Below, in pieces: positions 2,142 to 6,200 of a DNA stretch of 32,314 nucleotides; position 1 is the stretch's first letter, and each line of letters begins with the position of its first letter. This stretch comes from Devosia equisanguinis (GTDB lineage: Bacteria > Pseudomonadota > Alphaproteobacteria > Rhizobiales > Hyphomicrobiaceae): the NCBI GenBank assembly GCA_945903565.1, contig CAMDPA010000005.1:1-32314 (forward strand), in the 5' to 3' direction. Below the pieces are notes generated by a model, which worked only from the letters and a program-made list of their open reading frames with translations, did no database searches and was not told where the DNA came from. The position numbers and the translations under genes were made by a program.

Positions 2142-2369
2142 TCGCTTTTCTCCTCGGTTTGCGTGCTGGTGAGAATGTCGCTGAGCCTACTGCCTTGCGT
2201 CGGTCGAGTGAAAGCAGAATGGCCCTGCGAACCGACCTCTTCATTGCCGTGTCACATCGAGCAGCTATCGAGTCTACCAGCGTGGGTACGATAGGGCCGC
2301 CGGGCTGGCGGTCCGTCGCATAGCTATGGCTTTTGGCGCACTTCCGCGCCGCACCATTGGACGACGCCC

Positions 2370-2768
2370 ATGCCCGCGCGCGTGATGATCGTCGAGGACG
2401 ATCTGCATATCGCAATCCTGCTGCAGTACAACTTCGAGGCGGCCGGCTACGAGGTCGAGCATCTCGAACGTGGCGATGGCGTGGAAGGGCGCATCGCCGA
2501 TTGCGCGCCGGACCTGCTGTTGTTGGATTGGAACCTGCCCGGGGTTTCCGGCATCGAGCTTTGCCGACGCATCCGCAGGCTGACCCCGATGGAGCGCTTG
2601 CCCATTATCATGCTGACCGCGCGAACCGATCGGGCCGACCGTGAATTCGCGTATCATCTTGGCGCCAACGAATACGTGACGAAGCCCTTCTTGCTGAGCG
2701 ATATTATGTTTCGTGCAAACGGGCTGGTGCCAAGGAAACTGCAAGTGACGCCGCTGCCCCGCGTTTAG
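2370..2768 (+). CDS. Stand-alone PhoB-like response regulator receiver domain
   Basis: A 132-residue single receiver (REC) domain. Acidic pair D10/D11, phosphoacceptor D53 (LLLLDWNLPGVSG), T83 (IIMLTAR), Y102 and K105 (YVTKPF) are all present, so it should be phosphorylatable. The stretches LLQYNFEAAGYEVE, GIELCRRIRR and LPIIMLTARTDRADRE resemble the PhoB branch of OmpR-family regulators. Full-length PhoB has about 230 residues with a winged-helix DNA-binding domain. Here the frame ends 25 residues after the KPF motif, and I find no winged helix in another frame downstream. It may be a truncated PhoB paralogue or a functional phosphate sink or partner. No histidine kinase gene is nearby. The ribosome binding site is weak. 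Confidence 0.85.
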   Translation: MPARVMIVEDDLHIAILLQYNFEAAGYEVEHLERGDGVEGRIADCAPDLLLLDWNLPGVSGIELCRRIRRLTPMERLPIIMLTARTDRADREFAYHLGANEYVTKPFLLSDIMFRANGLVPRKLQVTPLPRV

Positions 2769-2934
2769 CAGGTCGCGCGGGTGGTTACGGCCTCTTCTCT
2801 GAACGTTCGGGATGGCCGGCAATGCGGGGGATATCACACGCGCATTCACACGCTCATCGCATCCGCGAAGTAGTCCAAGGCAGCGGGGTTGCTGTGTGTG
2901 GCGGCACGCCGCGCCTGACGGATGGAGCCGATAC

Positions 2935-3156
2935 ATGACCAACGAGACGATGCCGAACACCGGGCTCGAGCATGGCCGGAATACCGCGACGATCGACATG
3001 CGCCGAGCACGACAAGCGAGCAAAACGCCTGCAACCGTGCCGATCTCTCCACTCCTGGAGCGCGCCATGCTCGACGCACTCGACCGCGACGACGCATTGC
3101 GTTCGCGCTTTCTGCGGGAGCGCTGGCGGGGGCTTCCGGGCGCTGTGCGTGAGTGA
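2935..3156 (+). CDS. Small hypothetical protein
   Basis: A 73-residue ORF starting MTNETMPNTGLEH, with a possible ribosome binding site (GGAG, 9 bases upstream). I do not recognise a family. The N-terminal half looks disordered and basic; the C-terminal part (ISPLLERAMLDALDRDDALRSRFLRERWRG) is predicted to be helical and amphipathic. The track's longer version from 2812 has an Arg/Ser-rich N-terminus without coding character. It lies between the receiver gene and the Pho box in front of phoX, in the same direction. It may not be expressed. Confidence 0.35.
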   Translation: MTNETMPNTGLEHGRNTATIDMRRARQASKTPATVPISPLLERAMLDALDRDDALRSRFLRERWRGLPGAVRE

Positions 3157-3197
3157 AGCTGACTGCCTGCATGCCTGCAGGAAGCGGCGGGGCATGA

Positions 3198-3215
3198 TCG
3201 TCACGCGGCTGTCAT
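3198..3215 (+). promoter_or_regulatory. Candidate Pho box (PhoB site) upstream of phoX
   Basis: The sequence reads TCGTCAC-gcgg-CTGTCAT, two 7-base half sites with the 4-base spacing of PhoB boxes. The second half is a perfect CTGTCAT and the first matches at 5 of 7 positions when the accepted C/T at the last position is counted. It lies 50 bases before the phoX start, where a PhoB-activated promoter would be expected. GATAGT (3223) or GACAAT (3236) could serve as -10. This was found by eye; a matrix score is not available. Confidence 0.45.
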
Positions 3216-3264
3216 GTCCCGCCGATAGTCACCAAGACAATTCCAGACAGCGTTGGGGGCGAGC

Positions 3265-5223
3265 TTGAGCCAGGATGTGTGCCGGTCGAAATCGCAGCAG
3301 TTCGAGGCGGCGGAGGATGCCGGCTCCAATCCGTCCCGCGCCGACACGATCGGCGATGTCATCGCAACCCGGTTGTCGCGGCGCGACCTCGTCGGCGGTA
3401 TTCTGGCGGTCTCCGCGATCTCGTCGATCATGCCGCTTGCGGCTGAGGCGCAACCACTGGCAAAGACGGCGAACACGACGCCCAATTTCAACTTCAAGGA
3501 AATCGCGGCTGGCTCCGATCAAGCGATGCACGTCGCCGAGGGGCACGATGCCGACGTACTGATCCGCTGGGGCGACAAGGTGTTCGCAGATGCGCCCGCA
3601 TTCGATCCGCGGCGACAGACGCCGGCCGCGCAAGCCCGCCAGTTCGGCTACAACAACGACTTCCTCGGTTACGTACCGCTGCAAGGCTCGTCGTCGCGCG
3701 GCCTGCTCGTCGTCAATCACGAGTACACCAATGAGGAACTGATGTTCCCCGGCGTCGGCCGGCAGGACACGACCAAGTTCGCGAAGATGACGAAGGAGCT
3801 CGCCGACATCGAGATGATGGCGCACGGCGGCTCGGTGATCGAGGTGCGCAAGCGCGGCGGCAAGTGGTCGATTGTCGAAGGTAGTCCTTACAACCGCCGG
3901 ATCACCGCTACCACCGAAATGCGCATTTCGGGTCCGGCGGCGGGACACCCGCTAATGCGCACAAAGGCCGATCCCACGGGCACGCGCGTCCTCGGTATGC
4001 TGAACAACTGCGCCGGCGGCATGACCCCGTGGGGCACGTGGTTGACCTGCGAGGAGAACTTCAACGGCTATTTCTGGGGCTCCGTCGTCGGCCATCCCGA
4101 CGAGCAGGCACTGAAGCGCTACGGTGTGCCCTCGAACTGGTACAACTGGGGCGCCTACTACGATCGCTTCGACATCGCCAAGGAACCCAACGAGGCAAAC
4201 CGCTTCGGCTGGATGGTCGAGATCGATCCGATGGATCCCAAGTCGGTTCCGGTGAAGCGCACCGCGATGGGTCGCTTCAAGCACGAGGGCGCCGGCGGCG
4301 TCGTCAACAAGGATGGCCGATACGTCGTCTACTCCGGCGACGACGAGCGTTTCGACTACGTCTACAAGTTCGTGACTGAGGGGCGTGTGAACGCACGCAG
4401 CCGCGCGGTTAATCGCAACTTGCTCGACAAGGGCACGCTGTATGTCGCCAAATACAACGCTGATGGCACAGGCGAGTGGCTGCCGCTGGTCCATGGCCAG
4501 GGCAAGCTGACGGCCCAGAACGGCTTCCGCGATCAGGGCGAGGTGTTGATCAACGTGCGCGCAGCGAGCGATGCGCTCGGCGCGACGCGGATGGACCGGC
4601 CGGAGGACATCGACGTCAATCCGCGTAACGACAAGGTCTATCTGATCCTGACCAACAACGGCAACAGAACGCCCAACCAGATCGACGCCGCCAATCCGCG
4701 TGCGAGCAATCGCTTCGGTCACATTATCGAGATGATGCCGGATGGCCGCGACCACGCCTCGACCAAGTTCCGGTGGGAGATCCTGGTCAAGTGTGGCGAT
4801 CACACCATCGCCGCGGTCGGTGCCAGCTTCAATCCCGCGACGACGAAAGACGGCTGGTTCGGGATGCCGGACAATTCGATGATCGACGGGCGCGGACGCT
4901 TGTGGATCGCGACCGACGGCAACTCGCCGCAGGCGACCGGTCGCGCGGATGGCGTGTGGGCCATGGAGACCGAAGAGCCTGCGCGCGGCACGGCGAAGCA
5001 TTTCTTCCGTTGCCCCAACGGTGCGGAGCTGTGCGGCCCCTGCATGACGCCCGACATGACGACGTTCTTCGTCGCCATCCAACACCCCGGCGAGAGCGAG
5101 GATCCCAAGGTGCTTGCCACCTTCGAGAGCCCGAGCACGCGTTGGCCAGACTTCAAGCCCGACATGCCGCCGCGTCCGGCCATTGTCGCGATCACGCGGC
5201 GCGGCGGCGGGAGGATCGCGTGA
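3265..5223 (+). CDS. phoX: PhoX-family alkaline phosphatase (DUF839), Tat-exported
   Basis: A 652-residue protein of the PhoX family, periplasmic Ca/Fe-dependent phosphatases that release phosphate from organic esters. The twin-arginine signal SRRDLVGG (residues 38-45) precedes a hydrophobic stretch ending AEAQ; the long pre-Tat leader with SNPSRADTIGDVIA is typical of the family. Conserved blocks include VVNHEYTNEELMFPG, GGMTPWGTWLTCEENFNGYF (with the family cysteine), VYSGDDERFDYVYKF, DNSMIDGRGRLWIATDGN and the cysteine-containing CPNGAELCGPCMTPD. There is no suitable ATG at the 5' end: the track's start is TTG 3253, and TTG 3265 (MSQDVCR) after GGGGGCGAG fits the family N-terminus better. 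A candidate Pho box lies upstream and the next gene is coupled by a TGATG overlap. Function is confident by family; the exact start is less so. Confidence 0.93.
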   Translation: MSQDVCRSKSQQFEAAEDAGSNPSRADTIGDVIATRLSRRDLVGGILAVSAISSIMPLAAEAQPLAKTANTTPNFNFKEIAAGSDQAMHVAEGHDADVLIRWGDKVFADAPAFDPRRQTPAAQARQFGYNNDFLGYVPLQGSSSRGLLVVNHEYTNEELMFPGVGRQDTTKFAKMTKELADIEMMAHGGSVIEVRKRGGKWSIVEGSPYNRRITATTEMRISGPAAGHPLMRTKADPTGTRVLGMLNNCAGGMTPWGTWLTCEENFNGYFWGSVVGHPDEQALKRYGVPSNWYNWGAYYDRFDIAKEPNEANRFGWMVEIDPMDPKSVPVKRTAMGRFKHEGAGGVVNKDGRYVVYSGDDERFDYVYKFVTEGRVNARSRAVNRNLLDKGTLYVAKYNADGTGEWLPLVHGQGKLTAQNGFRDQGEVLINVRAASDALGATRMDRPEDIDVNPRNDKVYLILTNNGNRTPNQIDAANPRASNRFGHIIEMMPDGRDHASTKFRWEILVKCGDHTIAAVGASFNPATTKDGWFGMPDNSMIDGRGRLWIATDGNSPQATGRADGVWAMETEEPARGTAKHFFRCPNGAELCGPCMTPDMTTFFVAIQHPGESEDPKVLATFESPSTRWPDFKPDMPPRPAIVAITRRGGGRIA

Positions 5224-6200
5224 TGCATCGCATTCTAGCACTTGCAGTAGCCGCGGCATCGCTGGTCGGGACGCACGCCCACGCGCAAAGCGGCCCGCGC
5301 GCCTTTACCTTCATCGGCTGGGGCGACGTGCCCTACGCGATCCCCGGTGACTACGTGAAGGTCGACCGGCTGATCACGGCGATGAACGCGGTGAAGCCTG
5401 CGTTCTCAATCCACGTTGGCGACATCAAGGCCGGCAACACGCCGTGCTCCGACGAGGTGTTCAAGCGCGCGCTCGACCAGATCCAGACGGTCGAGCACCC
5501 CGTGGTCTACTCGATCGGCGACAACGAGTGGACCGACTGCCATCGCGCAGACAACGGCAAATTCGATCCGCGCGAACGGCTCGCCAGGGTGCGCCAGATG
5601 TTCTTCCCAAAGCCCGGGCAGAGCCTTGGCAAAGTCCCCATGGCGCTCGAGAGCCAGGCGCTGGCGGACCCCAAGCTCGGGAAGTTCGTCGAGAACCAAC
5701 GCTTCGTGCGCAATGGGGTGATGTTCGTCATTCCGCACATCGTCGGATCGAACAATGGATTCGAGCCGATTGATCCGAAAGCGACCGAGGAGTTCTTCGA
5801 GCGTAATGCCGCCAATGTCGCCTGGATCAAGGAAGGGTTTGCGCTTGCCCAGTCCTCTGGCGCCAGTGCGATGGTCATTGCTTTCCAGGCCAACCTTTAT
5901 GACACGCGCCGCTCCGCCGGCACGTCGATTCCGGTCTCCTCTGGCTTCCTGGCGACGATCCGCGAGATCGCGGCCGGTGCGCGCGCATTCGGCAAGCCAA
6001 TGCTGGTGATGCACGGAGACCAGCACACGCTGGAGCTGGAGTTGTTCCGCGACGTGCAGTTGCGACCGGTCCCCAACGTGCTCCGTCTGCAGCTTTGGGG
6101 TGAAGGCAAGGTCCACGCCATGCGGATCATCGTCGATCCCGACATGCCCGGCGTATTCAGCTTCGCGCCGCTGATCGTACCGGAGAACGGCGCTTTTTGA
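5223..6200 (+). CDS. Secreted metallophosphoesterase-like protein
   Basis: The ATG overlaps the phoX stop (TGATG), so translation is probably coupled. The 325-residue product has a Sec signal peptide (MHRILALAVAAASLVG, cleavage near AHA-QS). The mature part carries calcineurin-like metallophosphoesterase blocks: FIGWGDVPY, FSIHVGDIKAG, YSIGDNEWTD and a late MHGDQHT, which correspond to the D/N/H metal ligands of the family, although the classical GHxH reads HGDQH. It lacks the C-terminal domain of 5'-nucleotidases. With PhoX next to it, a periplasmic role in phosphate ester or nucleotide hydrolysis is likely, but the substrate is unknown. The track's longer ORF from 4773 is only an open frame through phoX. 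Confidence 0.85.
   Translation: MHRILALAVAAASLVGTHAHAQSGPRAFTFIGWGDVPYAIPGDYVKVDRLITAMNAVKPAFSIHVGDIKAGNTPCSDEVFKRALDQIQTVEHPVVYSIGDNEWTDCHRADNGKFDPRERLARVRQMFFPKPGQSLGKVPMALESQALADPKLGKFVENQRFVRNGVMFVIPHIVGSNNGFEPIDPKATEEFFERNAANVAWIKEGFALAQSSGASAMVIAFQANLYDTRRSAGTSIPVSSGFLATIREIAAGARAFGKPMLVMHGDQHTLELELFRDVQLRPVPNVLRLQLWGEGKVHAMRIIVDPDMPGVFSFAPLIVPENGAF

Follow-up and report, generated by a model that had tools for sequence, protein, structure and literature searches.

A lone receiver gene, a PhoB box and phoX

The window, by which we mean the whole stretch of 32,314 nucleotides analysed here, carries on its forward strand a gene for a lone PhoB-type receiver (2370–2768), a PhoB box (3198–3215), the alkaline phosphatase gene phoX (3265–5223) and an ORF of 325 codons (5223–6200). 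The first of these genes codes for a protein of 132 residues that lacks an output domain. In a Pfam search its product gave a single domain, Response_reg, at 85.9 bits. The top NCBIfam profile was PhoB (TIGR02154), which matched at 114 bits over profile positions 2–123 of 226, well below the full-length cut-off of 296 bits. An AlphaFold2 model, computed from an alignment of 40 receivers, predicted a complete (beta-alpha)5 fold with a mean pLDDT of 91, in which all five strands are complete, alpha5 is intact at residues 109–119 and the tail is loose. Since the domain matches cover the receiver and the predicted fold is complete, the protein terminates cleanly at a domain boundary and not inside the fold. 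The nearest solved structure is 1zes, the activated PhoB receiver. Having the whole receiver fold and no other domain, the protein is a single-domain response regulator.

The active site of the predicted fold is complete as well. E9, D10, D53, T83 and K105, which supply the acidic pair, the phosphoacceptor aspartate, the threonine and the lysine, are aligned and kept in all three orthologues described below. The receiver may be phosphorylated by a histidine kinase. The initial annotation had described an output-less receiver with all catalytic residues and no DNA-binding domain, and this description holds. Using tblastn, we found no DNA-binding domain in the receiver ORF and no remnant of one in the DNA on either side, in any of the three species; the C-terminal winged-helix of full-length PhoB is absent from ORF and flanks alike. 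A frameshift or a hidden DNA-binding domain near the receiver could be ruled out, the flanks being without a match. Scans for a sigma-70 promoter and for a terminator around the receiver gene gave no signal above chance.

The phoX product matches PF05787 at 600 bits (cut-off 24) and has, by eye, a twin-arginine motif near its N-terminus. We place its start at the TTG at 3265 rather than at 3253, because the former aligns with the ATG of the relatives. The PhoB box, TCGTCACGCGGCTGTCAT, consists of two 7-bp half-sites at an 11-bp period and ends 49 bp 5' of this start. Genome-wide, the bare consensus with 2 mismatches gave an unremarkable 39 matches, compared to 33 for a reversed control. As the consensus was thus uninformative, we turned to phoX promoters from other genera, in which coding-strand boxes lie mostly 45–110 bp before the start, and derived a half-site matrix from them for scoring. 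By this matrix the window box scores 16.4 bits, and boxes at 17.4 and 15.4 bits occur in the receiver–phoX gaps of two relatives; they lie 49, 62–63 and 50 bp before phoX (window, then the two relatives). In about 3000 random stretches of 300 bp, none of the three scores was attained. In one relative (G001:C163, L177) the gap contains four tandem half-sites at an 11-bp period, CGGTGAT, CGGTCAT, CAGTCAT and CAGTCAT. The box proposed earlier between receiver and phoX is therefore a Pho box that stands above background, precedes a Pho gene and keeps its place in the relatives.

Because all three gaps hold high-scoring boxes at a conserved position, phoX is very probably driven by PhoB from its own promoter, as judged from these sites. 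PhoB likewise drives phoX in Sinorhizobium meliloti (PMC5127829). The box lies 3' of the receiver gene and is assigned to phoX. A second, weak PhoB-box-like site (2238–2255, forward strand) lies 114 bp 5' of the receiver start and scores 10.9 bits. Weak coding-strand sites precede all three receiver genes, but 9, 6 and 12 of 94 control genes, respectively, score as high, so that PhoB control of the receiver gene is only suggested. These weak upstream sites may possibly constitute a feedback loop.

The 325-residue ORF overlaps the phoX stop codon and has no Pfam match at E ≤ 0.001 and no NCBIfam match. It accompanies phoX in two other genomes of the genus (G003 and G002), where it is 80–84% identical, and its sequence, with segments like HVGDIKAGNTPC and GDNEWTDCH, hints at a calcineurin-type phosphoesterase. 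The gap between receiver and phoX also contains a small ORF of 73 codons (2935–3153) that has no match in the loci from other places; it may be due to chance or be a species-specific insertion. Elsewhere, the genome of the window carries a second phoX (G000:C273), 74% identical to that of the window, with no receiver nearby; about 210 bp 5' of its start lies a weaker PhoB-box-like site.

Conservation and descent of the truncated receiver

In what follows, G000 denotes the genome of the window, and G001, G002 and G003 denote other genomes of the same genus. A search of 60 related genomes gave two orthologues of the receiver, both in this genus: a protein of 127 residues (G003:C305, 64% identity) and one of 122 residues (G001:C163, 62.5%). 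Identities among the three species are about 61–64%. Both orthologues are also lone receivers, and both lie directly 5' of phoX on the same strand, at distances of 164 bp (G003) and 129 bp (G001), compared to 496 bp in the window. A DNA-binding domain has left no trace in any of the three gaps. The ORFs 5' of the receiver are unlike one another in the three species, which indicates that the receiver–phoX pair has been kept as a unit. The adjacency is seen in 3/3 genomes where the place is visible; in the fourth genome of the genus, G002, the matching phoX and the downstream ORF are present, the contig ends inside phoX, and the rest of the genome gave no close receiver. That the truncated gene and its pairing with phoX are conserved, which the initial annotation had suggested checking, thus holds for two further species, and no full-length gene was seen at this place in the relatives where it is visible.

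The receiver gene has no stops, and between species its third codon positions match at 46% and its second positions at 74–78%. Its dN/dS is 0.23–0.28, at dS above 1, while that of phoX is 0.14–0.18; from these ratios we conclude that purifying selection acts on the receiver, which nonetheless evolves faster than phoX. At the protein level, phoX is 79–81% identical between species, compared to 61% for the receiver. The faster evolution, together with the missing DNA-binding domain and the restriction to one genus, would fit a decaying, functionless fragment of a phoB duplicate, as the initial annotation had offered as its alternative. This explanation is contradicted by the conservation in three species: all three genes are intact, share the point of truncation and have dN/dS near 0.25, their catalytic residues are invariant, their place beside phoX is conserved, and the lost domain has left no remnant. 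We regard it as very improbable.

How far the truncated form extends was followed at several levels. In 103 genomes of the family, at E ≤ 1e-35, we obtained only the receivers of the genus and the PhoBs of one other genus, with no further lone relative; three PhoBs of that other genus were translated and all are full-length. In 398 genomes of the order, at 1e-37 and with only 10 candidates per genome scored, the other matches have long frames (239–461 aa). A GTDB-wide scan with two peptide patterns, whose reach is close relatives, gave 80 best loci; among the 67 checked, only the two known orthologues end after the receiver, and the frames of the remaining receivers continue into the output region. 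In 27 further phoX loci, no receiver was seen up to 1.5 kb from phoX (or up to the contig end where that was closer), and a literature search of partial coverage brought up no case of a lone receiver derived from PhoB next to phoX. Since the family, order and GTDB-wide searches gave no other lone relative, the lone PhoB-type receiver is, as far as these collections show, an innovation of one small genus of uncultured Hyphomicrobiales.

The descent of the receiver was examined in a tree of 84 receivers, which has 124 columns only. The three lone receivers, hereafter the orphans, form one clade (100/99). They fall inside a PhoB branch (99/96) that contains 51 PhoB-type receivers besides them and excludes the remaining 28 receivers of the window's genome; the assignment to the PhoB branch made from the sequence alone is thereby upheld. 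Within this branch the tree puts the orphans with other Hyphomicrobiales PhoBs, although their placement inside PhoB is uncertain. The tree does not favour recent copying from the PhoB of the genus itself, though this topology is not rejected (AU p = 0.335). A chimera with another type of receiver was likewise considered and dismissed, since the N-terminal half scores 139 bits against PhoBs and 57 against the best other receiver. The C-terminal half also scores best with PhoB, at 38.9 bits, with one of the genome's own OmpR-type receivers near at 34.1 bits. We conclude that a PhoB gene in the ancestor of the genus shed its DNA-binding domain and was retained as a stand-alone receiver beside phoX.

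The canonical Pho genes lie elsewhere. PhoR-type kinases are encoded at G000:C49, G001:C129 and G002:C84, and a pstB-phoU-phoB cluster at G000:C30. A second phoU-phoB pair occurs on a 3.8-kb contig (G000:C499), which is possibly a stray contig.

Kinase-facing and dimer-facing residues

To locate the changes in the orphans, we considered the positions that are common to at least 90% of PhoBs. Compared to 24 PhoBs chosen without a peptide pattern, the three orphans have jointly lost 0/31 conserved positions in residues 1–85 and 9/21 in residues 86–121, which comprise alpha4-beta5-alpha5. The associated p = 8e-5 comes from a test that treats positions as independent; because the orphans share ancestry, it measures how the two regions differ and should not be read as three separate events. 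The same comparison on 51 PhoBs gave 1/36 and 10/21, respectively. Each orphan has 12–13 losses in residues 86–121, while no single PhoB has more than 3.

On the conserved side lies the kinase-facing alpha1 helix. A YN pair at residues 20–21 is found in 51/51 PhoBs, and in 24/24 of the pattern-free set, but in 0/28 other receivers of the window's genome. Four PhoR-specificity positions (13, 14, 17 and 21) were taken from the title of PDB 4ja2, where four positions were used to rewire a receiver; the alignment includes rows for E. coli PhoB and RR468. The orphans read HILN, NILN and HILN at these positions and the genome's own PhoB reads AILN, so that the orphans match PhoB at 3/4, while the other receivers of the genome have PhoB-allowed residues at 2/4 or fewer. 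The rewiring in 4ja2 presumably copied PhoB, its new letters P, I, M and V matching E. coli PhoB. Position 13 is H or N in all orphans and never H or N in the 24 PhoBs. This residue could betray a receiver that belongs to an unrelated kinase and has come to lie beside phoX by chance. Given the three shared specificity positions, the YN pair confined to PhoBs and the adjacency to phoX wherever it can be seen, we consider such an origin of the pairing improbable.

The opposite face has been remodelled. V92, L95 and A114, as well as positions 91, 101, 111 and 115, are what we take, from the 1zes structure, to be PhoB dimer contacts. In the orphans the hydrophobic residues among them are swapped (V92 to E/A/E, L95 to Y/L/R and A114 to F/S/M), while the central charges are kept (R91, D/E101, E/D111 and R/K115). 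The alpha5 helix of the orphans is 14–21% identical to that of their own PhoB, compared to a mean of 77% among PhoBs. This bears on a possible dominant-negative role, in which the receiver would pair with PhoB via alpha4-beta5-alpha5 in mixed dimers that are unproductive at PhoB boxes. The retained charges would allow it; the alpha4-beta5-alpha5 face works in PhoB dimerisation, and non-functional heterodimers are a possible negative mode in the E. coli work (PMC2586830). However, the hydrophobic contacts are replaced, alpha5 is far less like that of the own PhoB than PhoBs are on average to one another, and mixed dimers in this family form weakly even when the faces are intact. Heterodimer formation therefore appears unlikely. 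Of the two mechanisms proposed in the initial annotation, pairing with PhoB loses ground in this way, whereas drainage of phosphate from PhoR gains from the PhoR-facing residues and the active site, both kept, as far as residue patterns can tell.

Taken together, residues 1–85 and three of the four specificity positions are conserved and residues 86–121 are eroded, from which we conclude that the input face has been kept and the PhoB dimer and output face remodelled. Given this regional pattern, a PhoB heterodimer is less favoured than a PhoR-facing decoy or a receiver that has acquired a new partner. A new partner is not proved by the change of face in itself, because losing contact with an absent DNA-binding domain would relax parts of the face too.

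Possible roles and comparison with known systems

Within the phosphate response, the receiver probably acts as a built-in decoy or adaptor. We tentatively favour a role in which the truncated paralogue docks on PhoR and competes with full-length PhoB, raising the threshold or shortening the response of PhoB-driven genes. The receiver would dock by its alpha1 face and either accept phosphoryl groups, as a sink, or occupy and block the kinase, as a sequestering protein. Competition with the PhoB encoded elsewhere would leave less PhoB~P, and hence a higher threshold or a shorter response at genes such as the adjoining phoX. A competing receiver that sequesters a kinase, with the resulting effect on threshold, has been modelled and tested for other receivers (PMC10368727). 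Somewhat more guardedly, the receiver could be seen as a decoy derived from the cognate regulator, one that shed DNA binding and PhoB dimerisation, kept PhoR docking and sets the starvation threshold, possibly with feedback. Several observations count against a decoy: position 13 departs from all 24 PhoBs, S108 and G86, close to the kinase contact, are altered, the orphans evolve faster than phoX, and the replacements that they share in residues 86–121 would equally fit a new partner.

These shared replacements (T86, R/K88, F/Y93, A94, T104, S110 and A116), together with a pairing with phoX that persists despite differing upstream neighbours, lend some weight to another reading, to which we assign a smaller but appreciable chance. 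The receiver, phosphorylated by PhoR or another kinase, might signal through a new partner bound at the remodelled face, in the manner of CheY or DivK; such a partner may act on phosphatase export or phosphate uptake. Single-domain regulators that act via other proteins are known in alphaproteobacteria (PMC5964349), and one single-domain regulator activates a polysaccharide-synthesis enzyme (PMC12802240). Against this, no candidate partner was found, replacements common to three related species can be explained by common descent, and alpha5 is just 29–50% identical between orphans.

If the receiver does restrain PhoR, as we propose for a decoy, it would be a natural case of a two-component system gaining a tunable threshold by the loss of half a gene. 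It would also affect our view of how the widespread phosphate-starvation phosphatase PhoX is controlled. Stand-alone receivers are common. Descent from the system's own DNA-binding regulator is seldom this easy to see; in the present case we can name the parent family, and only one face has changed, which lets the sequence itself tell input from output. With PhoB (TIGR02154) the orphans share receiver sequence, clade, active site and the kinase-facing residues of alpha1; they differ in lacking the DNA-binding domain, in the remodelled alpha4-beta5-alpha5 and in a gene placed by phoX and not by pst-phoU. CheY, DivK and MrrA are also receivers only, but of another lineage, the receiver of the window belonging to the OmpR/PhoB branch.

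Osp of Rhodobacter sphaeroides is, like the receiver described here, a lone alphaproteobacterial receiver, and for the latter we propose that it, too, acts on a conserved system's kinase. Osp, a single-domain regulator, inhibits its kinase CckA in a negative feedback loop; it has neither the Mg-binding acids nor the lysine and acts in its unphosphorylated state (PMC9430884). In contrast, the window receiver keeps the Mg-binding acids and the lysine and has no degenerate active site of the Osp type. The systems closest in predicted action are kinase sequestration and phosphate sinks (PMC10368727; LovR, PMC5964349), where, as predicted here, a competitor drains phosphoryl groups or lifts the threshold. 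In those cases the competing receiver is a non-cognate regulator or comes from another family, whereas the receiver of the window is a truncated paralogue of the cognate regulator itself.
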